In this document: one piece after another, positions 24,560 to 63,949 of the stretch
How the letters are laid out: the number at the start of each line of letters is the position of its first letter
How positions within the stretch are numbered: position 1 is the stretch's first letter
Source: Prevotella sp.
GTDB lineage: Bacteria > Bacteroidota > Bacteroidia > Bacteroidales > Bacteroidaceae
NCBI GenBank assembly: GCA_017619275.1
Contig: JAFZSR010000076.1
Coordinates: 29,047 to 93,046 of the forward strand
Reading direction: 5' to 3'
DNA length: 64,000 nucleotides
Program-made: the position numbers and the translations under genes
The notes under the pieces: model-generated
What the model was told of the DNA's origin: nothing
Databases searched by the model: none
Seen by the model: only the letters and a program-made list of their open reading frames with translations

Positions 24560-24693
24560 TTATTTCGTTATTCTCCAAATATTTTACAACTAATATAATA
24601 TACTTTTTTGCTGTCCACTTTATTCAAATTCGTATCAGGATAATTGAGTGGATTATTGGCTCTGAAAAACAAGTTAACGCTTTCTGAAAATTC

Positions 24694-24752
24694 GGTAACG
24701 ATTTTTTGAAAAAAGTTAACGAGTTTTGAAAAAATCTCGTACGAGATTTTTT
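24694..24752. repeat. 59-base intergenic palindromic repeat, copy 2
   Basis: Matches 421-479 at 57 of 59 positions. In this copy A6-TCTCGTACGAGA-T6 is a perfect 24-base palindrome. Like copy 1 it lies between divergent genes. The rest of the 395-base gap (24521-24915) holds only the two promoters. Confidence 0.88.
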
Positions 24753-28373: not shown

Positions 28374-29393
28374 TCATTTTGCCTGGATGTCAATCTTGGG
28401 TATGCGGCCGTCCTTCATGCGCTTAAACTCGCGGAAGGCGGTGGTGCGACGGAAACCGTTACCGCCGGAAGGGATGCCGTCGTGATAAAAGAGGTACGAC
28501 TTGCCTTTGAAGTCGATGGTGCCGCCGTGAATGGTAAACGAGCCTGGCGACTCGTCGGTGATGCGACCTTCGTAGTGCCAAGGGCCGTGGATGCTCTTCG
28601 ACGTCGAATAGGCCCAGTGCTCCGGCACGCCGCCAGCGGCATACTCCAAGAAATAGGTGTCGCCAATCTTATAGATCCACGGCGCTTCCTCAAAGCCTGT
28701 CTTCATCACCCTTCTGTGGAGCTGATAGTCCATCTTCATACATTTTGGCCCGAACTGTGCCTCGTCGTCCAGCATGGCGCGCATATCGCAGATGCCGTTG
28801 TCGGCAAAGTTATTGTCGATGCTGATCATGTCTTCGTTCAATTTGGCATACCAACAGCCGTTGTTACCCCAGAAGAGCCACGCCTGTCCGTCGTCGTCGA
28901 TAAATACCGAGGGGTCGATGAAGCCCCAGTTTCCTGGAATGAGCGGCTTCCCGAGGGCGTCAGCCCAAGGACCTTCCGGACGGTCGGCTACGGCCACACC
29001 GATGCCGTGCAGGTGCTTGGTAGTGTCCTCTGCGGCCACATACCAATACCACTTGCCGTTGCGCTCGATAGCCTGCGAGGCCCATGCATTGTCGCCCTGC
29101 TTGGCCCACTTGAAGTTGGCAGTGGTCAACACCACGCCGTGGTCCGTCCAGTGTTCCATGTCGGTGGTGGAAAACAACTGCCAGTCGGGCATGCGGAAGT
29201 AGGTCGCCGTGTCCAGGTCGTGACCCGTGAACACATAGAGACGGTCGCCCGATACCACAGGGGCTGGGTCGGGGTTGTACATGTGGTTATTCACTCGCCT
29301 CATTCCCGAGCTTTGCTCGCCTACCCGTTGCCTTTGCGCTTGCATGGTGATGGCCAACAACAGTGTGATAGCCGCTAAAACTGTTCTTTTCAT
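28374..29393 (-). CDS. Secreted GH43-family glycoside hydrolase
   Basis: This 339-residue protein has a signal peptide (cleavage near TMQAQ, residue 20) and a five-bladed GH43 propeller. The three carboxylates are visible: Asp42 in YNPDPAPVV, Asp160 in GFIDPSVFID, and the Glu of TGFEEAPWIYK. It probably removes arabinose or xylose from plant hemicellulose or pectin at the surface or in the periplasm; the exact linkage is unknown. Residues about 21-31 (RQRVGEQSSGM), just after the signal peptide, are encoded by a 35-base repeat also inserted in sbcD. No clear promoter is visible in the 19-base gap before it, and no SusC/D pair is near. Confidence 0.85.
   Translation of the reverse strand: MKRTVLAAITLLLAITMQAQRQRVGEQSSGMRRVNNHMYNPDPAPVVSGDRLYVFTGHDLDTATYFRMPDWQLFSTTDMEHWTDHGVVLTTANFKWAKQGDNAWASQAIERNGKWYWYVAAEDTTKHLHGIGVAVADRPEGPWADALGKPLIPGNWGFIDPSVFIDDDGQAWLFWGNNGCWYAKLNEDMISIDNNFADNGICDMRAMLDDEAQFGPKCMKMDYQLHRRVMKTGFEEAPWIYKIGDTYFLEYAAGGVPEHWAYSTSKSIHGPWHYEGRITDESPGSFTIHGGTIDFKGKSYLFYHDGIPSGGNGFRRTTAFREFKRMKDGRIPKIDIQAK
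29301..29335 (-). repeat. In-frame coding repeat, copy 1 (inside the GH43 gene)
   Basis: This 35-base stretch matches 33625-33659 at 34 of 35 positions and is read in the same orientation and frame. It gives the peptide RVGEQSSGM and contains CGAGCAAAGCTCG, a 5-bp hairpin with an AAA loop. Here it falls between the signal peptide and the catalytic domain. Confidence 0.88.
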
Positions 29394-29412
29394 ATTCTAT
29401 CTTGTTTTGTGT

Positions 29413-29652
29413 TTATAAACGGAGAAGCATATTCGAAACAATGGGGTCTATCATCTGTTTGGGGACATCGCACACCTGAGCGAATTTGGGCCACCCAGAT
29501 GCTATCTCGCATATTTCATCGATAATCGGTGCTGCATCCTTTATATTTATATTGTTGAGATGCGCAAACTCCAGCAAATCTTGCCGATTGATATCGTCAA
29601 ACTTCCCATTGATTGACATTTGGTGGGTTGCTGTCCATCCTCCATGCCACAT
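29413..29652 (-). pseudogene. hipA: HipA toxin remnant, C-terminal fragment only
   Basis: The 79-residue frame starts MWHGGWTATHQMSINGKFDD, which matches the last part of HipA kinases (the THQMSINGK block), and continues DLLEFAHLNNINIKDA and ASGWPKFAQVCDVPKQMI to a normal C-terminus. The N-terminal subdomain and the catalytic core (about 300 residues or more) are absent. It starts directly after the stop of the Xre gene (TAG then ATG), so an internal deletion has probably fused the end of hipA to the antitoxin gene. It cannot be an active kinase. Whether the peptide is made is unknown. Confidence 0.75.
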
Positions 29653-30000
29653 CTACCATTCCGACTCCTCCTGTTTTGCGTTATTCAGTTTGCCTACAGC
29701 CCGTTTTCGCTGGTTGGTCTTCGAGGCCTGCATCATATTGTAGTATTCGTTTGGGCTCAGCTGTTCCTCTTCCACCAACTGTTGCAGCATATCCAGTTTT
29801 CCCAGCGTGCGCAGCATCCGCAGGAGTGAATCAAACGAGCGAATCTCCCCTTTCTCTATCTTCTTGACGGTAGAGAGAGAAACATTCGCCGCTTCCGACA
29901 AACTCTGCTGAGTAATGTTCTGTTTCAGTCTGGCCGACTTCAGGTTCCCCCCGATTCTAGCGAGGATGGCCATGTCTGTCAACATGTAAATGTCATCCAT
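29653..30000 (-). CDS. hipB: HipB-like Xre antitoxin/regulator
   Basis: This 115-residue protein has an Xre helix-turn-helix at about residues 20-75: LKSARLKQNITQQSLSEAAN, then VSLSTVKKIEKGEIRSFDSL. The C-terminal third is polar and basic (KTNQRKRAVGKLNNAKQEE). Proteins of this type stand before hipA in Bacteroidetes, bind the operon's own operator and neutralise the kinase. The fragment downstream is indeed HipA-derived, so this is an orphan antitoxin. It has its own promoter at 30029-30036. It may still repress itself or act as an anti-toxin against incoming HipA, which is inference. Confidence 0.82.
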   Translation of the reverse strand: MDDIYMLTDMAILARIGGNLKSARLKQNITQQSLSEAANVSLSTVKKIEKGEIRSFDSLLRMLRTLGKLDMLQQLVEEEQLSPNEYYNMMQASKTNQRKRAVGKLNNAKQEESEW

Positions 30001-30028
30001 AATGGTTCTAAATTAACCTTTTTCGGTG

Positions 30029-30036
30029 CAAAGATA
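30029..30036 (-). promoter_or_regulatory. -7 element for the hipB-like gene
   Basis: Minus-strand TATCTTTG matches TAnnTTTG, 28 bases before the ATG at 30000. Confidence 0.6.
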
Positions 30037-30097
30037 CGAATAAAAGTTTAATTTAAAGCTATACAGGGTCAATTTTTATTTGATGTTGCGATAATTG

Positions 30098-32986
30098 TCA
30101 ATCGAAGATGTTTACGACTTTTACACTACTGCTTGAGTTGTTCCCCTCTTGGTCCACCTGAATCTGAACAGGAATACATTCGCGTAGGTCGAGCACGTGG
30201 CTGATTATACCAACATGACGACCAGACTTGGTATGAAGCGAGCGTAGCGTGTTGATGGCATTTTGCAGAGGTTCGCCACTGAGCGTACCAAAGCCTTCAT
30301 CAATGAATAGCGTATCTACAGCCAGTTGTTGGCCTATATCACTGAGTGCAAGGGCCAAGGAAAGCGAGACGAGGAAACTCTCTCCTCCAGAAATCGTACT
30401 TGCTGCTCTGCTGACATAGCCCTGATAAGCATCCTCTAACGAAATGACAAAAGTGCCTGGCGCTACCTTCAGCGTATATCGATCGGTCAGTGTCTTCATG
30501 TAGCTGTTGGCCGAATGTATCAGGCTGTTCAGTACATAACTCTGCGCTATCTTTCTAAAGGTGTTACCCTTGGCGTCGCCAATGAGCTGGTTTAAACGCG
30601 ACCATTTCTGATAATCGGCCTTCTTGCTCTCTTCGTCTGCCATCAGCACACCAAGACGCTTTTTGTTGCCTTCATCAAACTTCAATTCCTGGTTGATGGC
30701 ACCTTTTCTTATATTGGCCTCCGTCATTTGTTTGTCACTCTCTTGAACCCGTTCTTCAAGGAATTCGGCCGTATCCTCTTTTGCAAATTCAGGCTTATTC
30801 TGCAGATGCTCTTCTTGCTGTTTTTTGACAGCCTGCAAAAGTGCCATTTGAGTCAGCTCATTGCGTCGCGCTTTGTCTAAAGCCTCGTTCTTTTTACTTA
30901 TTTCCTGAGCTGAGTAGGCATTAAGAGCCGTCAGCACATCCTCTGTGACACCTTCATGGCTTGAATAGAAACCGTCCAACAGTTTCTGGTTCTCCTCGAT
31001 AGTGGCTTTCAATTGCTCAATGTCCTTGCGCTTGGCTTCAGCCAGTTCTTTCCCAACAACAATCTTCTGCTTACAGGCCTCAACAGCCTGTCTGTTCTTG
31101 TCAACTACGTTTTTCTTTGCATCCCAATTATTCCTCAGAGTATCCAGCGTTTTTCTATGTTCCTTTACTTCTTTTTCTTTTTGTTCGCCGTCTTTGATTT
31201 GATTTTCAAGCTCACCAAGTGCCAGATTGGTTTTATTTTTTAGGTCTTCAAGTACAAAAGGCACATTATCATCAATGATCTCTATGCCACAAGCCTTACA
31301 AGCAGCTGCCAGCTTCTTTTCCACATTCTCAACGGTCTTGTCTTTGTCAAGGTTGTCTTTATCTCGTTGCCAGACTAGTGTGGCAGTTTTGACTTCTGCA
31401 TCAAGTTTGTTTTTCTCCGCAACAATGTCTTTGTACTCCTTTTCCGAATCTTTGAACGATGATGTCAGACTGGCCACCAGTTTTGCCAGTTCTTCTTCAT
31501 GAGGAAGTTCAGAGACGATCTCTTGTCCACAGACAGGGCATTTATCACCCTGTTGTAGTTTCTGACGCATGGTCTTGGCGAACTTGTCTATAGTGTCTTT
31601 CTGCTTGTCAAGCAAGTCCTTGCAGGCATTCATCTTCACCTCGGCATCATGAATCTTAGCCGGGTACTGCTCAAGTTTTTTCTTGCTCTCCTCAATGCTG
31701 ACCAACGAGTTTGCCAGAGCCTGACGGGCATTCTCTACCTTCTCATTGGCTTCTGCCAATGAAATGAGCTGCTCATTAGCCGTCTTGATATTCAGCAGCA
31801 AGTCTTTTGCCTCTTCATGCTGCTTTCGCAGAACCGATATGTTTAGTGCAGCCAGATTCTCTTCCTGAGACCTTACGGCCATTTGCTGTTTTTCAAACAA
31901 CTCTTTTGCCGTTTCAGCCTCTTTGCCTGCTTTTTCAAATGCAGGATTGAGTATCTCCGTTAGTTTCTTGCTCTCAGCATCAATAGTACCTTGCTGTTGG
32001 TTATATTCTTTATTTCGCACCTCAACTTTCTTCCTGGCATTGTTTCTGGTCGTCAACCAGTTCCTAACATCAATCGTAGTCTGCCATCCTCTTACCAGCT
32101 CTTCTTCTTTCTTGAAGTCATCGCTATGGGTGATGGCGGAAGCCTTTTCGCACTCTTCAGTGGCCTTCTTTTCTTTCACAGTCAGTTCGCCATCCGTTCT
32201 TAGCCAATCGCATTTCTTTTTATCCGTTTCATATTGCTTTTTGGCTTCCTGGTACTGGATTTCAAAAGCTTCAATTTCTTCTTTCTTCTGGGCTATTTCC
32301 TCCTCGTTCAGTGTGTGGGTATTGTTCACCAGCTGCTGTGCATCTTCCCACAATCGTTTTTTCTGATTGGTCACCTCGAAGACCTTTTTACCCACCTTCG
32401 TATAGATGTCCACGCCCGTAATCTTCTCCAGAATCGCCGCTTTTTCCTCATCCTTGCTGTTGAGAAAACGGGTAAACTCTCCCTGTGCCAATAAGGTGGT
32501 ACGGCAGAATTGGTTGAAGTCGAGCCCAATTGCGGCTTGAATCTCAGTACCGATTTCCTTGTCCCTTGTATACGTGTAATCAGCGTCAAGGTTTTTAAGA
32601 CTCCACGACTTCCCCTGTAGGTTTCCTGTAATTTTCCTATATGCTCGGGCTACAGACCAAGTGGCTTCATAATGAACACCGTTACTTCCTGTAAAAGTCA
32701 GCGTCACATATGCTTCACCGGTGTTCCTGCGCATTAGCTGACGAGGATCTTTGGTCTTGACACCCTCATTTCCGTCTTGTGTTTCCCCTTGCATCAAGGT
32801 TTCTGAAAGTCTTGGCGTGTCAGCAAAGAGAGCCAGACAGATGGCATCCAGTATCGTAGACTTGCCCGCGCCTGTCTTTCCTGTTATCAGGAACACCTCG
32901 CTACCAGCTAGAGGCTGTGCTTCAAAGTCAATCGTGGCATCCTCTATCGATGCAATGTTGTGTATGGTAAGTTTCTGTAATTTCAT
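30098..32986 (-). CDS. sbcC: SbcC exonuclease subunit (SMC-like ATPase)
   Basis: This 962-residue protein is the ATPase of the SbcCD (Rad50/Mre11-like) nuclease that cuts hairpins and processes blocked DNA ends. Walker A GKTGAGKS is at residues 36-43 and the Q-loop region at CRTTLLAQGEFTRFL. Two long coiled coils flank a zinc hook with CPVCGQ near the middle. The C-terminal lobe has the signature TISGGESFLVSLSLALAL and Walker B DTLFIDEGFGTLSG. It follows sbcD after 17 bases and shares its promoter. By eye the codon use is more AT-rich than in the flanking housekeeping genes. Confidence 0.95.
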   Translation of the reverse strand: MKLQKLTIHNIASIEDATIDFEAQPLAGSEVFLITGKTGAGKSTILDAICLALFADTPRLSETLMQGETQDGNEGVKTKDPRQLMRRNTGEAYVTLTFTGSNGVHYEATWSVARAYRKITGNLQGKSWSLKNLDADYTYTRDKEIGTEIQAAIGLDFNQFCRTTLLAQGEFTRFLNSKDEEKAAILEKITGVDIYTKVGKKVFEVTNQKKRLWEDAQQLVNNTHTLNEEEIAQKKEEIEAFEIQYQEAKKQYETDKKKCDWLRTDGELTVKEKKATEECEKASAITHSDDFKKEEELVRGWQTTIDVRNWLTTRNNARKKVEVRNKEYNQQQGTIDAESKKLTEILNPAFEKAGKEAETAKELFEKQQMAVRSQEENLAALNISVLRKQHEEAKDLLLNIKTANEQLISLAEANEKVENARQALANSLVSIEESKKKLEQYPAKIHDAEVKMNACKDLLDKQKDTIDKFAKTMRQKLQQGDKCPVCGQEIVSELPHEEELAKLVASLTSSFKDSEKEYKDIVAEKNKLDAEVKTATLVWQRDKDNLDKDKTVENVEKKLAAACKACGIEIIDDNVPFVLEDLKNKTNLALGELENQIKDGEQKEKEVKEHRKTLDTLRNNWDAKKNVVDKNRQAVEACKQKIVVGKELAEAKRKDIEQLKATIEENQKLLDGFYSSHEGVTEDVLTALNAYSAQEISKKNEALDKARRNELTQMALLQAVKKQQEEHLQNKPEFAKEDTAEFLEERVQESDKQMTEANIRKGAINQELKFDEGNKKRLGVLMADEESKKADYQKWSRLNQLIGDAKGNTFRKIAQSYVLNSLIHSANSYMKTLTDRYTLKVAPGTFVISLEDAYQGYVSRAASTISGGESFLVSLSLALALSDIGQQLAVDTLFIDEGFGTLSGEPLQNAINTLRSLHTKSGRHVGIISHVLDLRECIPVQIQVDQEGNNSSSSVKVVNIFD

Positions 32987-33003
32987 AGTTGCGTCCTCCC
33001 TAG

Positions 33004-34203
33004 TCAGTCGTTACGTGCATCATTGGCCACCATGTTCATGGCCTCGTTAAACATCGCTTCCATCTCCTCGTTGAAGTTGATGCCAGCATATTCTGCATAG
33101 CGTTTGGCTATCTCGATTGGCTCTTCCGATTGGAATTCCTGAACGGTCAACACCTTCGCTTCTGTTTGATTTGCAGTCTTCCTCTTGGCATTGACATAGC
33201 AGAATCGACACTGCTTTCCTTCTGTCAGATTTGCCGCTTCTGCATTTGCCTCTACCGGCAAGAAATCATCAATCTCCACGTTCAGGCGTATATAGGCAGG
33301 AATGTCATTAGGGAACTTTCCTAAAAACTCCTTGGCTTCTTCCCACGAGGCCAGTCCATCTGTCGGCAATGTGACCAAGGGATGTGGATTCTGTATTTCG
33401 ATTTCCTCCACCTTTGGCGTATCACCATGCTTTTCAATCTCAACCATGCTAATGGTATGATTGAAGTTCTCATCAAAGCTGACGGGTAGGGGAGTGCCGC
33501 AATATCTCACATCATGTTTCCCACTATGAACGAATTGCCCATGGTGGATATGTCCCAAAGCCAGATAGTCGTAGCCTTCGCCCATCTTTTCCAGTTCCAG
33601 CGAGTCTATGCCTCCTACAGTGTACATTCCCGAGCTTTGCTCGCCTACCCGTAGCCTTTCAGTAACATGGTCATGTCCCGAGAAATCACATCCTTTCACG
33701 GTCGTATGGGCCGTCATCACCACTGGCAGCCCCTCCAGGTTCTTCTCTGCCACTCTGTCCAGCAACTGTTGGAAGAAACCTTCAGGGATGTTCCTCTCAT
33801 TCGTGTACGGAACAGCAACTATGAATCCTTTCCCTGGCACTTCGATGATATGCTCGTCTGGATTTTCCTTCTCCAGTTGACCGATGGCATACACTTTCAG
33901 TGCCTTCCATGGAGTCTGGAAAATCTCGTGCTTTGCACCGCTATCGTGATTGCCAGCCGTCATTACAATCGTCATCTCAGGATGTGCCTCGTGGATCCTC
34001 ACGAGCCCGTCCGCCAACATTGTCTGTACGGCAGCCGATGGCTGTGGCGTATGATACACATCGCCGCATAGCAGAAACACATCCGGCTTCTGTTCTTTCA
34101 CGATCCCTGCCATCTGTTCCAGCATGGCCAGTTGCTCTTCCGTCCTGTCATAGTTATACAACGTATGCCCAAGATGCCAGTCGCTCGTATGCAATATCTT
34201 CAT
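33004..34203 (-). CDS. sbcD: SbcD nuclease subunit
   Basis: From ATG 34203 this 399-residue Mre11-like phosphodiesterase starts MKILHTSDWHLGHTLYNYDR, the first metal-binding motif. Motif CGDVYHTPQPSA, then MTAGNHDSGAKH and LALGHIHHGQF supply the other ligands. A frame opening at 34221 adds six residues that homologues lack. Between HTTVKGCDFSGHDHVTE and VGGIDSLELEKMGEGYDY, a position that is a loop in the family, the peptide RLRVGEQSSGMYT is encoded by the 35-base repeat at 33625-33659. It is first in the sbcDC operon. Confidence 0.93.
   Translation of the reverse strand: MKILHTSDWHLGHTLYNYDRTEEQLAMLEQMAGIVKEQKPDVFLLCGDVYHTPQPSAAVQTMLADGLVRIHEAHPEMTIVMTAGNHDSGAKHEIFQTPWKALKVYAIGQLEKENPDEHIIEVPGKGFIVAVPYTNERNIPEGFFQQLLDRVAEKNLEGLPVVMTAHTTVKGCDFSGHDHVTERLRVGEQSSGMYTVGGIDSLELEKMGEGYDYLALGHIHHGQFVHSGKHDVRYCGTPLPVSFDENFNHTISMVEIEKHGDTPKVEEIEIQNPHPLVTLPTDGLASWEEAKEFLGKFPNDIPAYIRLNVEIDDFLPVEANAEAANLTEGKQCRFCYVNAKRKTANQTEAKVLTVQEFQSEEPIEIAKRYAEYAGINFNEEMEAMFNEAMNMVANDARND
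33625..33659 (-). repeat. In-frame coding repeat, copy 2 (inside sbcD)
   Basis: Matches 29301-29335 at 34 of 35 bases, with the same orientation and reading frame. It encodes RVGEQSSGM in a loop of SbcD just before the conserved VGGID segment. Confidence 0.88.
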
Positions 34204-34229
34204 AAACTCATGAATTTTCAATTATGCTG

Positions 34230-34582: not shown

Positions 34583-34625
34583 CCGCTTTCCACAAACATT
34601 AACCAGTCTTCTATTTGTTTAAACA

Positions 34626-34700
34626 GCGACACAGTCTATATAAACCGTGATGCAGTTTTTATAGACTACGACGTAGTTTATAAAAACCACGACGTAGTCT
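34626..34700. repeat. 21-base tandem array, ACGACGTAGT type, copy A
   Basis: Units of exactly 21 bases at 34626, 34647 and 34668, plus a partial unit at 34689. The best unit reads ACGACGTAGTTTATAAAAAC plus C. ACTACGACGTAGT is an internal inverted repeat. A sister array is at 63735-63810. The rest of the gap to glnS (34701-34990) shows no feature I can name. Confidence 0.85.
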
Positions 34701-34993
34701 GAAGAATGTTTGCGTGTTTGTGGGTTATACTTATACAACTGCTACGTTTCCGTTCTGCGTTGCCGACTATTTAAAATATAGTTTTGATTTGAATCGGCAT
34801 TATGATAAATAACTGCATATGATTCTAACCACACTATCCTATTTGTGTATCTCAACAAACACAAATGAGACTCCCTTTATGGCAGGTTGACTTGAATGTA
34901 TTATGTACGTTATACAAACCCCTTGCATTTGAGAACTTGCTCATTATATAATATACACGCGCAAGGCGCTTAACCTGTCAGTTCTTTCGGTTA

Positions 34994-35148
34994 AAAGTAC
35001 ACTTTCGCTCGGAAAAAAAATGGGTTTTTCTTTTGTTCTTCGCTCTCTTATTCGTACCTTTGGCCTTCGGCCGAAAGTACTTTCGCTCGGAAAAACAAAG
35101 AAAAAATATCTTTTTCCTTTGCTTTTCGCTCGCTTATTCGTACCTTTG
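34994..35148 (+). promoter_or_regulatory. Duplicated promoter segment upstream of glnS
   Basis: Two related segments, 34994-35062 and 35074-35148, both begin AAAGTAC, continue CTTTCGCTCGGAAAAA and end CTTATTCGTACCTTTG. The two -7 elements TACCTTTG are at 35055-35062 and 35141-35148, 86 bases apart. A GGCCTTCGGCC hairpin separates the copies. Confidence 0.75.
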
Positions 35149-35174: not shown

Positions 35175-36917
35175 ATGGCAGAGAAAGTATTGACCGAGAA
35201 CGAAGAGAAAAAATCGGTGAGTTTTATTGAGCAGAAGGTAATCGACGACCTGGCAGCAGGCAAAAACAGCGGGCGCTTACAGACGCGTTTCCCACCAGAA
35301 CCCAATGGCTATCTGCACATTGGACATGCAAAGGCCATTGCCCTCGACTTCGGCCTTGCCAAGAAGTATGGCGGCGAGTGCAACCTGCGATTCGACGATA
35401 CCAATCCCCAAAAAGAGGACACCGAATATATTGAAAGCATTGAGCACGACATCAAGTGGCTCGGCTTTGAGTGGGCACACGTCTACTACGCCAGCGACTA
35501 TTTCCAGCAGTTGTGGGACTTCGCCGTGTGGCTCATCCGTCAAGGCCGTGCCTATGTCGACGAGCAGAGCGCCGAGGTGATTGCCCAGCAGAAGGGCACC
35601 ACCACCAGTCCTGGCACCAACAGCCCCTATCGCGACCGTCCCGTGGAGGAGAACCTTCGGCTCTTCGAATATATGAACAGCGGCGAATGTCAGCCAGGCA
35701 CGCTGGTATTGCGTGCCAAGATTGACATGGCACATCCCAATATGCTCTTCCGCGATCCCCTACTCTATCGCGTGCTGAACATTCCCCACGTGAAGACTGG
35801 CTCGCGCTGGAACGCCTATCCGATGTATGACTTCACCCACGGACAAAGTGACTATCTGGAGGGTGTCACCCATTCGTGGTGTACACTGGAGTTTGTGGAG
35901 CACCGTCCCTTGTACGACCTCTTTGTGACTTGGATGAAGGAGTGGCGGGGCGAAACCGACAATATCGAAGACAACCGCCCTCGTCAGACGGAGTTCAACA
36001 AGCTGAACCTGAACTACACGTTGATGTCGAAGCGCAACCTGTTGGCTCTGGTGAACGAGAAATTGGTGAACGGATGGGACGACCCACGCATGCCGACCAT
36101 CTGCGGTTTCCGCCGTCGTGGCTACTCGCCCGAGAGCATCGTGAAGTTCATCGACAAGATTGGCTACACCAAGCTGGATGCCCTGAACGACATGGCCTTG
36201 CTCGAGAGCGTCGTGCGCGACGATTTGAACCAGCGTGCCCTGCGTGTCAGCGCTGTCCTCGACCCCGTGAAAGTGGTCATCACCAACTATCCTGAGGGCC
36301 AAATCGAGACGCTCACCGCCGTTAACAACCCTGAGAATGAGGCAGATGGCAAGCATGAGGTGGAGTTCAGCCGCGAGATTTGGATTGAGCGCGACGATTT
36401 CATGGAGGTTGCCGAGAAGAAGTTCATGCGACTGGCTCCTGGCAAGGAAGTGCGATTGAAGAACGCCTATATCATCAAGTGCGACGAAACGCATCCTTGC
36501 GACAAGGACGCCGACGGCCGCGTGACCACCATCTACTGCACTTACGACCCCGAAACGCATAGCGGCATGCCCGGTGCCGACCGTAAGATCAAGGGAAAGA
36601 CGTTGCACTGGGTGAGTTGCCACAATGCCGTGAAGGCCGAGGTGAGGCTCTACGACCGTCTGTGGAAGGTGGAGAACCCGCGCGACGAACTGGCTGCCTT
36701 GCGCGAAGAGCAGCAGTGTGATGCCGTCACGGCCATGAAGCAGATCATCAATCCCGATTCGCTCAGCATCAACGGCAACTGCTACATCGAGCCTTTTGCT
36801 GCCACGTTGCCCGCACTCACCTATCTGCAGTTCCAGCGCATCGGTTACTTCAATGTCGACCCCGACTCCACGCAGGAGCATCCCGTCTTCAACAAAACCG
36901 TGGGGTTGCGCAGCTAA
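35175..36917 (+). CDS. glnS: Glutamine-tRNA ligase
   Basis: This 580-residue class I synthetase charges tRNA-Gln. It has TRFPPEPNGYLHIGHAKA with the HIGH motif at residues 48-51, the GlnRS-specific LRFDDTNPQKED, the tRNA-binding SDYLEGVTHSWCTLEF, and the KMSKS-equivalent LMSKR near residue 277. The C-terminal anticodon-binding beta-barrels are complete. True GlnRS, rather than GluRS plus an amidotransferase, is normal in Bacteroidetes. Two tandem promoters lie upstream. The TPR gene follows after 22 bases. Confidence 0.95.
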   Translation: MAEKVLTENEEKKSVSFIEQKVIDDLAAGKNSGRLQTRFPPEPNGYLHIGHAKAIALDFGLAKKYGGECNLRFDDTNPQKEDTEYIESIEHDIKWLGFEWAHVYYASDYFQQLWDFAVWLIRQGRAYVDEQSAEVIAQQKGTTTSPGTNSPYRDRPVEENLRLFEYMNSGECQPGTLVLRAKIDMAHPNMLFRDPLLYRVLNIPHVKTGSRWNAYPMYDFTHGQSDYLEGVTHSWCTLEFVEHRPLYDLFVTWMKEWRGETDNIEDNRPRQTEFNKLNLNYTLMSKRNLLALVNEKLVNGWDDPRMPTICGFRRRGYSPESIVKFIDKIGYTKLDALNDMALLESVVRDDLNQRALRVSAVLDPVKVVITNYPEGQIETLTAVNNPENEADGKHEVEFSREIWIERDDFMEVAEKKFMRLAPGKEVRLKNAYIIKCDETHPCDKDADGRVTTIYCTYDPETHSGMPGADRKIKGKTLHWVSCHNAVKAEVRLYDRLWKVENPRDELAALREEQQCDAVTAMKQIINPDSLSINGNCYIEPFAATLPALTYLQFQRIGYFNVDPDSTQEHPVFNKTVGLRS

Positions 36918-48916: not shown

Positions 48917-48981
48917 GCCGTTGCGAAGCGAAATAAATGGCCTAAAAAAAGAAGGAGCATGACCTACCATATTTTGGTGCC

Positions 48982-49036
48982 GACTTTTTGAAAAAAGTCG
49001 TACGAGTTTTTGAAAAAAGTCGTTAAGATTTTTGAG
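48982..49036. repeat. Intergenic palindromic repeat, diverged copy 3
   Basis: GACTTTTTGAAAAAAGTCGTACGAGTTTTTGAAAAAAGTC, read in parts, shares the TTTTTGAAAAAA and CGTACGAG modules with copies 1 and 2 but in a different order. It lies 65 bases after the helicase stop and 60 bases before the lipoprotein gene. Confidence 0.7.
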
Positions 49037-63243: not shown

Positions 63244-63331
63244 GCAATAATATTGGTAACAAACAAATCCTTCAGCGTTTTTTCGCGCATTTTTTTCATA
63301 AGGAAAGGGCAGCCCATCGCTGAACTACCCA

Positions 63332-63686
63332 TAAATAAAAACTGTCATCTGTCATCTGTCATAACTGTCATCACTGCTTGCGGAAACGGTTGTCCACGAG
63401 GATATACTAGCTTTTTGTTAATATTCCTCTCATTATCTATTCCAAAATCGCATATCGATTTTCTGTCCTCGTATAATAGTTTTCTTATTTGCAAAAATAC
63501 GAAAAGATGGGCAGAAAACAAAAAAAGTATACTTTTTTTTTTGCAGAAGCGGAGTGATTTTGCCCAATAAGCGAAGAATTAAGACATACTCTCGTTTCTT
63601 CGTTTTTCCAACTGATTGACCAGAAGACAGTTATGACAGATGACAAATGACAGTTATGACAGATGACAGATGACAGTTTTTATTTA
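63332..63686. repeat. 40-base perfect inverted repeat pair (CTGTCAT heptamers)
   Basis: 63332-63371 and 63647-63686 are exact reverse complements over 40 bases, made of CTGTCAT-type heptamers. Outside the shared 40 bases the right arm extends further with the same words (63628-63646). The 275 bases between the arms contain no convincing gene. Confidence 0.88.
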
Positions 63687-63734
63687 AGGGGGGGAGGAGG
63701 ACTTTGCGCCAGACACGCAAACATTCTCTAGACC

Positions 63735-63810
63735 ACGTCGTGGTTTTTATAGATTACGTCGTAGTTTATAAAAACTGCGTCAAGGTTTATAAAGACCACG
63801 TCGCGATATG
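63735..63810. repeat. 21-base tandem array, ACGACGTAGT type, copy B
   Basis: Units at 63735, 63756 and 63777, plus a partial unit at 63798, each 21 bases. The second reads ACGTCGTAGTTTATAAAAAC plus T, almost the same as the best unit at 34668. CCACGTCGTGG is a perfect inverted repeat. Confidence 0.85.
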
Positions 63811-63949
63811 AACAAATTATACTATATATATGAATATACACATAATATATATTTATAAATAAACACATTCAAGTTTCGCAAGTTAAAAAATAGTTGAGAT
63901 TAGGTCGCAAAAAAGAGCACAGGGATTTCCGTATGTCGCGGAAATTTTG

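Follow-up and report, generated by a model that had tools for sequence, protein, structure and literature searches.

Palindromic repeats that enter protein-coding genes have been described from several bacterial groups, and those closest to the element reported here are the Rickettsia palindromic elements (RPEs), for which Ogata et al. 2000 is said to be the source, repetitive extragenic palindromic sequences (REPs), and miniature inverted-repeat transposable elements (MITEs). The subject of this report is a 35-nt element that occurs twice, in frame in two unrelated genes, within a 64,000-nt stretch of Prevotella sp. DNA (GenBank assembly GCA_017619275.1, contig JAFZSR010000076.1, positions 29,047 to 93,046 of the forward strand), referred to below as the window. 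The element is interpreted, with a probability of about 0.8, as a non-autonomous mobile hairpin of Prevotella-group bacteria. No earlier description was recognised in the openly accessible literature searched on REPs, their associated transposases and palindromic repeats in Prevotella and Bacteroidetes; of three text matches to the peptide or core DNA words, the one in PMC4783081 proved to be a PCR primer.

RPEs measure 105-146 bp (about 100-150 bp) and form long stem-loops; they are found in frame in conserved, unrelated proteins and also between genes, are tolerated, and have been reported from solvent-exposed sites (PMC2229807, PMC3767692). REPs usually exceed 100 copies per genome (PMC2817692). 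GTAG repeats are listed for Proteobacteria, Cyanobacteria, Chloroflexi and the PVC group and CGTC repeats for Bacteroidetes, and intragenic repeats of these kinds are listed in several species (PMC3733652). GTAG together with a hairpin is the signature read by TnpA_REP enzymes, also called REP-associated tyrosine transposases (RAYTs), yet REP 'dissemination mechanisms are poorly understood' (PMC8266576).

Filled and empty insertion sites

The two window copies lie in a gene for a glycosyl hydrolase family 43 (GH43) protein and in sbcD, both on the minus strand. They are identical at 34 of 35 bases and share the codon phase; about 4e-10 such pairs would be expected by chance in 64 kb of random sequence with equal base composition. 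The pair was first noticed in a sequence-only reading, and its coordinates, identity, orientation and frame are confirmed, as are the minus-strand hairpin CGAGCAAAGCTCG, which spans element positions 17-29, and the shared peptide RVGEQSSGM in two proteins of different Pfam families. In the GH43 protein R-Q-R-V-G-E-Q-S-S-G-M is encoded after the Q that closes a signal-peptide-like region (Q-RQRVGEQSSGM-R), and in SbcD R-L-R-V-G-E-Q-S-S-G-M stands between E and YTVGGID (E-RLRVGEQSSGM-Y). The SbcD product matches Pfam Metallophos (1.1e-15), with an SbcD_C match under its cut-off, and also matches solved SbcD chains.

Close relatives of both genes are without exactly this segment. At this site the two closest SbcD orthologues, in genomes G018 (88% identity across the query) and G025, have ACGGAATATAC in place of the window's ACTGAA[AGGC...GAATG]TACACT; 11 loci were tried, the 8 others being unmatched by the search expression at the site. 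For GH43, matches were obtained in 74 of 120 genomes, mostly more distant, and the best 14 loci were read: the window's own gene and that of G072 are filled, 11 are empty with a net difference of 33 nt, and G090 carries a decayed remnant, EQQANEQSSSI, in which the 11-codon length is kept. With two filled genes and one remnant, this insertion is common to three genomes (under one-per-species sampling) and is decaying in one of them with the frame intact. A third comparison took as query the filled dihydrolipoamide dehydrogenase (Lpd) gene of Prevotella sp. MA2016; 95 of 200 genomes gave matches and 30 loci were fetched, of which 24 are empty, one (G188) is filled by two tandem 33-nt units, and 5 were unread by the expression. 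Copies at this one Lpd site differ in their stems (locus L126 versus G188), which may reflect in-place change or repeated insertion. Filled and empty sites thus differ by a net 33 nt (11 codons) per unit in all three genes and, as in RPEs, the insertions are in frame in unrelated conserved proteins whose relatives are without the segment.

Where the 35-mer sits in a filled site, the empty site has two bases, and target duplication is absent. The proposal of a 35-base insertion therefore stands as to the insertion itself and needs amending as to its size: the net gain is 33 nt, since the 35-mer stands where two original bases stood, and this 35-for-2 exchange is what adds 11 codons per unit. 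The two bases are AA in SbcD, GH43 and the nearest Lpd relatives, in the loop of a RAYT-associated REP, TTGCGACGCTGGG-AA-GCGTCGC (7 empty places, TGGG-AA-GCG, versus 4 filled, TGGG-[35]-GCG), and in GAGTGAA arrays, as judged by the array period. They are AG in the hairpin repeat CTCCCCTCCC...GGGGAGGGG (GGGG-AG-GGG versus GGGG-[35]-GGG), and TA where the element is nested in its own copy (CGGG-TA-GGCG versus CGGG-[35]-GGCG; clear in L109, L127 and L169, less clear in L096, L145 and L149). The replacement is visible at the AG and TA sites only, because AA sites hide the exchange. A plain 33-nt insertion would need different ends to fit the AA and the AG targets, and it does not account for the nested TA targets.

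The base 5′ of the element is G in 86% of copies, C in 11% and A in less than 1%. These comparisons show that insertion takes place after G or C, and the dinucleotide exchanged was AA, AG or TA wherever an empty site was seen. For insertion of the IS200/IS605 type, a 2-nt replacement is unusual. The ends, AAAGGC and GGAATG, form no inverted repeats, and the element has neither the terminal repeats nor the target duplication of a MITE. Tandem 33-nt units were also found in L227, L228 and L229; a 33-nt circle is not claimed from them, as slippage between the AGG at the start and the AGG just past the end would also account for them.

Element structure and covariation of the hairpin

The consensus is AAAGGCWACGGGTAGGCGRnnNNNnnYCGGGAATG, in which GTAG occupies positions 12-15 and is separated by 1 base from the stem at positions 17-29. 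The element answers to the description of a GTAG REP, being palindromic, within the 20-40 nt range and provided with GTAG next to its stem, with the difference that GTAG is not at its very end, 11 conserved nt preceding it. The exact search patterns impose GTAG and part of the constancy of the consensus; the 2-mismatch search did not impose GTAG, yet nearly all copies listed keep it. Variation among 160 copies is concentrated at ten positions, namely position 7 (T 81%, A 13%, C 4%), three inner stem pairs and the 3-nt loop.

The stem was analysed in 74 distinct copies. Its first inner pair is A-T in 68 and G-C in 5, the second is C-G in 31, G-C in 31, A-T in 9 and T-A in 2, and the third is C-G in 51 and G-C in 18, with one T-G. 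Six stem cells are unpaired, and G-U accounts for 1 of 370. Paired cells amount to 98.4% versus 78.8% in shuffled alignments and cells altered on both sides number 65 versus 22.2, each exceeded by none of 500 shuffles, and the covariation score is 0.439 versus 0.101 (standard deviation 0.016), a value matched by none of the 500, although these shuffles ignore relatedness among copies. With the partner shifted by 1-3 columns the score is at most 0.051. Three of five covariation measures thus lie above every shuffle, and structure is kept while sequence changes. Covariation through Watson-Crick changes suggests recognition of folded DNA, and the near absence of G-U argues for a DNA hairpin rather than an RNA one.

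A loop bias (AAA in genes) was given up because several locus sets had been retrieved with AAA-based patterns. In the loci found by a neutral pattern (see below), a base other than T stands at position 7 in 11 of the 31 copies called genic versus 2 of the 28 called noncoding (p 0.012, uncorrected), and 13 of the 31 versus 5 of the 28 belong to the ACG stem class (p 0.053); neither was used. The features of the two window copies are collected in Table 1.

Table 1. Window positions of the two element copies, their parts and their host genes
Feature	Position	Strand	Sequence or basis
Element copy 1, 35 nt, in GH43 gene	29301..29335	-	AAAGGCAACGGGTAGGCGAGCAAAGCTCGGGAATG on coding strand
Net inserted DNA, copy 1	29301..29333
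Native AA site, copy 1	29334..29335		AA
Hairpin, copy 1: 5-bp stem CGAGC/GCTCG, 3-nt loop AAA	29307..29319	-	DNA fold -4.6 kcal/mol; covariation
GTAG tetranucleotide, copy 1, 1 base 5′ of hairpin, REP-like foot	29321..29324	-	sequence
Element copy 2, 35 nt, in sbcD	33625..33659	-	AAAGGCTACGGGTAGGCGAGCAAAGCTCGGGAATG on coding strand
Net inserted DNA, copy 2	33625..33657
Hairpin, copy 2	33631..33643	-	covariation and DNA fold
GTAG tetranucleotide, copy 2, 1 base 5′ of hairpin	33645..33648	-	sequence
Host gene 1: glycosyl hydrolase family 43 protein, 339 aa	28374..29393	-	Pfam Glyco_hydro_43, 4.6e-45
Host gene 2: SbcD (Mre11-type nuclease subunit), 405 aa, listed TTG start	33004..34221	-

Distribution of the element

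In the genome to which the window belongs (G000; 3.59 Mb in 127 contigs, 85% complete) a 28-base core is found 10 times when up to 3 mismatches are allowed, with 0 in the reversed control, and there are 15 strong matches (E < 1e-5) plus 2 weak ones to a covariance model that was built on 74 distinct copies from other loci. Across the genus, a 25-base core (at most 2 mismatches) was found in 85 of 398 sampled genomes, the own genome counted, the reversed control being zero among the matches listed. The exact core pattern was confined to the own genome in a sample of 247 genomes from across the order, of which all but 3 belong to other families. Among named genome contigs at least 119 stretches carry the element, chiefly in Prevotella-labelled assemblies and many of them from the rumen; a few assemblies labelled Muribaculaceae, Paludibacteraceae or Bacteroides have it as well, which could be due to transfer or mis-binning.

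Most of these genomes are draft assemblies. The element is also present in isolates, namely Prevotella communis E15-14 (a complete chromosome), Prevotella sp. MA2016, P6B1 and tf2-5, Xylanibacter ruminicola Ga6B6 and Hoylesella loescheii An865. Model matches number 3-17 in each of the six genomes from which the isolate loci come (43 in total), and the element is therefore no artefact of metagenome assembly. Copies per genome are few beside the more than 100 usual for GTAG REPs. Thirteen stretches on nine viral contigs (L164-L176, IMG/VR), three of them repeats of the same place, carry the element, and phages may therefore carry it between hosts. With its dispersal over many Prevotella genomes and other loci of its own genome, and with the sites of relatives empty, the idea of a small mobile insertion has held up.

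Reading phase and host proteins

Gene calls were computational, from a codon model trained on 257 long open reading frames (ORFs). They place 48 of 162 copies in genes (both flanks in one frame), with 11 weaker calls, 32 noncoding, 65 mixed and 6 at an edge. Of the 48 genic copies, 39 are read in the sense phase E/Q-R-x-R-V-G-[E/D]-x-x-S-G-M (the RVGE phase) and 7 in antisense, while the remaining 2 use the second open sense phase. Among neutral loci (L045-L176, 129 copies), which were found by a loop- and stem-neutral pattern, the sense phase accounts for 26 of the 33 strict calls; with weaker calls admitted the count is 31 of 40. The null expectation for the RVGE phase, taken over all sites in real coding sequence weighted by target preference and with stops removed, is 28-40% (binomial p 6e-6 to 3e-9), and the phase is 2-3 times over-represented among genic calls. 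In the isolate genomes the longest spanning ORF of 200 aa or more has it in 17 of 23 cases, a count for which 30 of the 43 copies had loci, partly overlapping the earlier sets. Among genic copies, the R-x-R-V-G-[E/D]-x-x-S-G-M phase is statistically favoured beyond stop avoidance and target preference.

The sequence-only reading suggested that the element owes its survival to being open in this phase. That account is too simple, the consensus being stop-free in 4 of 6 phases and copies occurring in the others. In the sense phase, loop codons of the five commonest stem classes are unable to become stops. A hydrophobic antisense phase, FPTFRRLPVAF, is read in L130 within an N-terminal stretch that by eye resembles a signal-peptide core; L008, in the own genome, is an antisense copy with flanks like those of L130, and L077, called in that hydrophobic phase too, lies outside any signal-peptide-like place. 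The view of the element as an in-frame resident of genes also requires qualification, in that the element is not mainly intragenic, hairpin repeats and short tandem arrays of intergenic appearance holding many of its copies.

Hosts assigned by Pfam include Lpd, a CobT-type phosphoribosyltransferase, an ABC ATPase, a PAD_porph-family deiminase, an EF-Tu-type GTPase and an M18 aminopeptidase. In ClpB the insertion is inside the C-terminal domain, in methionyl-tRNA synthetase (MetRS) it falls between the anticodon and tRNA-binding domains, and in a GH10-esterase protein, one of another set of 10 proteins (9 with a family), it separates the two domains. The residues vary with the stem (GEQSSG, GDGTSG, GGQSPG, GELCSG). 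Solved-structure alignments confirm the host families but do not place the insertion; the insertions presumably lie on the protein surface.

Three further loci are recorded here. In L144 (1607-7111) one 1835-aa ORF has two in-frame copies, ERPRVGDETSGM and ERRRVGDGTSGM. The sbcD gene of CAMOWU01 (L151, 3855-5189) has, at a different site, a larger in-frame hairpin-like repeat that encloses the element. In L217 (1361-1427) an element copy is itself interrupted, 32 nt that may belong to a second small mobile family lying between its CGGG and its AATG.

Proposed mechanism and alternative explanations

Stems that keep their pairing but not their letters suggest that something reads the folded strand, and a constant footprint suggests a defined pasting reaction. 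By analogy with what has been proposed for REPs and TnpA_REP/RAYT, a trans-acting enzyme may recognise the folded single strand (GTAG and hairpin) and paste it. Harmful insertions would be lost, and genic copies would persist where length and phase give a short, hydrophilic, flexible loop at a place that the protein permits. A stronger version, in which a selfish hairpin is adapted to proteins, its sequence, with one dominant soluble phase, having been selected to be harmless in them and its exact 35-for-2 exchange made by a hairpin-reading enzyme with undescribed transposition chemistry, is rather unlikely, though if true it would mean that short loops have spread into housekeeping enzymes across a bacterial genus and some phages.

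A number of points tell against reading the element as a mobile hairpin favoured in one phase. Movement and translation are deduced from sequence comparison, no de novo transposition having been seen. Within the stem the two outer pairs are invariant among the 74 distinct copies, the search pattern restricted one inner pair, and two measures do not rise above the shuffles, namely pairs changed on both sides (3 versus 2.3) and further pair types (6 versus 6.5). The replacement is invisible in the three gene sites, because the native dinucleotide of the nearest relatives is AA. As to phase, the codon model is right about the frame for 84% of windows of 60 codons; of the 129 neutral copies 55 are unclassified (mixed), 28 noncoding and 6 at an edge; the target preference in the null comes from 103 flanks (those of copies without a genic call); and other phases do occur among genic copies, including that of L251 in the own genome. 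Searches with Y1 profiles and clustering of neighbouring genes found no mover. Y1_Tnp (PF01797) is present in 17 of 26 genomes with at least 3 copies versus 15 of 26 with none, a comparison in which copy-free genomes were picked at 97% completeness or more and copy-bearing ones are 50-99% complete, past gene loss being possible; it was not found in G188 (24 copies, 81% complete), G381 (12, 98%) or G157 (11, 93%). In the 30 of 55 Y1 loci scanned the element was never the gene's own flanking repeat, and in an all-against-all ORF comparison no gene family looks enriched beside it among the best 25 clusters, which include no transposase look-alike and of which the largest (9 loci) reads like a sigma factor.

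That the element is a true REP, moved by an identifiable TnpA_REP/RAYT (a Y1 HUH transposase) and forming a new class unusually tolerant of genes, is a serious contender at somewhat less than even odds. It has GTAG just before a perfect hairpin, a length of 20-40 nt and a variable stem on a fixed foot, and classical Prevotella REPtrons with GTAG repeats do exist: in G085 and in G141 (16 copies, two Y1_Tnp genes) a RAYT gene lies amid GTAGGAGG-foot repeats of two stem classes (GCGACGC, GTCACGC). These two RAYT genes near the element own different repeats, however, with the element sitting in the loops of those; of the Y1 loci scanned, the two that have the element (L216, L217) show the copy inside the loop of a different REP. 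Y1_Tnp presence shows no clear correlation with copies in the genomes compared, and 3-17 copies per genome compare with more than 100 usual for REPs (PMC2817692). With PF01797 searched in the own genome and 52 chosen genomes and 30 of 55 loci scanned, RAYT as the cognate mover found no support; the mover of the hairpin may be an unrecognised or lost RAYT, or another enzyme.

The phase bias could alternatively result from target preference and stop avoidance alone, insertion at G/C-A-R favouring Glu and Gln codons with no selection at the protein level, and we regard this as unlikely. Sites of the form [GC]A[AG] on a codon start are indeed the largest of six classes, at 24%, and empty gene sites are GAA, GAG or CAA with few exceptions, but the 28-40% expected after weighting falls short of the 26/33 observed, or of 39/48 with pattern-biased loci. 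The hydrophobic antisense reading FPxxxRLPVAF in a signal-peptide-like core (L130) is also what a physico-chemical filter predicts, L077 being contrary. It is very improbable that the shared peptide is a functional motif (a tag, binding or processing signal) selected in both proteins. The preserved frame and fixed length, seen even in the decayed GH43 copy of G090, would suit such a motif, but the hosts are unrelated, most orthologues read are without the peptide in the three genes compared, stem changes in the DNA alter residues freely, and the same DNA occurs in intergenic-looking repeats. Gene conversion between the two window genes, with no mobility, can hardly be right: the copies are near-identical and 4.3 kb apart, but their flanks are unrelated, there are 13 other strong copies in the genome, and the GH43 copy is present in G072 and, decayed, in G090, yet the SbcD site is empty in G018 and G025.

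Other repeats in the genome and the window

The own genome's single Y1_Tnp match, a 141-aa ORF at 24 bits (L044, 880-1803, G000:C62), adjoins a different repeat family, GGATTTGTAATCCGCC / TGGATTTGCAATCCAGCC, that is translated in listed ORFs (RICNPP...). Within the window, positions 34613-34720 and 63710-63817 form a 108-nt inverted pair, 84% complementary, with 21-bp tandem spacing in each arm, and an inverted-repeat cluster of ATGACAG-like units lies at 63328-63690. An 87-nt AT-rich repeat has three copies, at 393-479, 24666-24752 and 48948-49034, the latter two 84% and 62% identical to the first. A 48-nt direct duplication (85%) at 35015-35148 ends in TTATTCGTACCTTTG, just upstream of a 580-aa ORF at 35175 that by eye resembles a glutaminyl-tRNA synthetase.

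Comparison with known repeat families

MITEs (Correia, ERIC, YPAL and others; PMC2229807) resemble the element in being short, non-autonomous mobile DNA that is sometimes fused in frame to genes; the element differs in having no terminal inverted repeats or target duplication and in being about three to five times shorter. Its likeness to GTAG REPs lies in a length of 20-40 nt, GTAG before a hairpin, and a stem that varies between classes (PMC3733652, PMC6006769, PMC8266576), from which it departs in its low copy number, the 11 conserved nt upstream of GTAG, its many genic copies, and the fact that no cognate RAYT was found among the genomes and loci searched.

The likeness to RPEs that the sequence-only reading had drawn holds in part. 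Both are small palindromic repeats that lie in frame in unrelated hosts and also between genes, and in frame they work alike. The Prevotella element is far shorter, at 35 nt (net 33) against 105-146 bp and thus outside the size range of RPEs, with a 5-bp stem, a REP-like GTAG-hairpin core and a 2-nt replacement footprint, and it occurs in Prevotella and its kin. Target choice, end chemistry and the enzyme become open to direct tests, since there are filled and empty sites that share one footprint, stems that covary, several stem classes and cultured isolates, and the natural series of 11-residue insertions (Lpd, ClpB, MetRS, SbcD) is useful for asking where proteins accept loops. The comparison suggests that Bacteroidota, too, have selfish DNA that lies in frame in the manner of Rickettsia.

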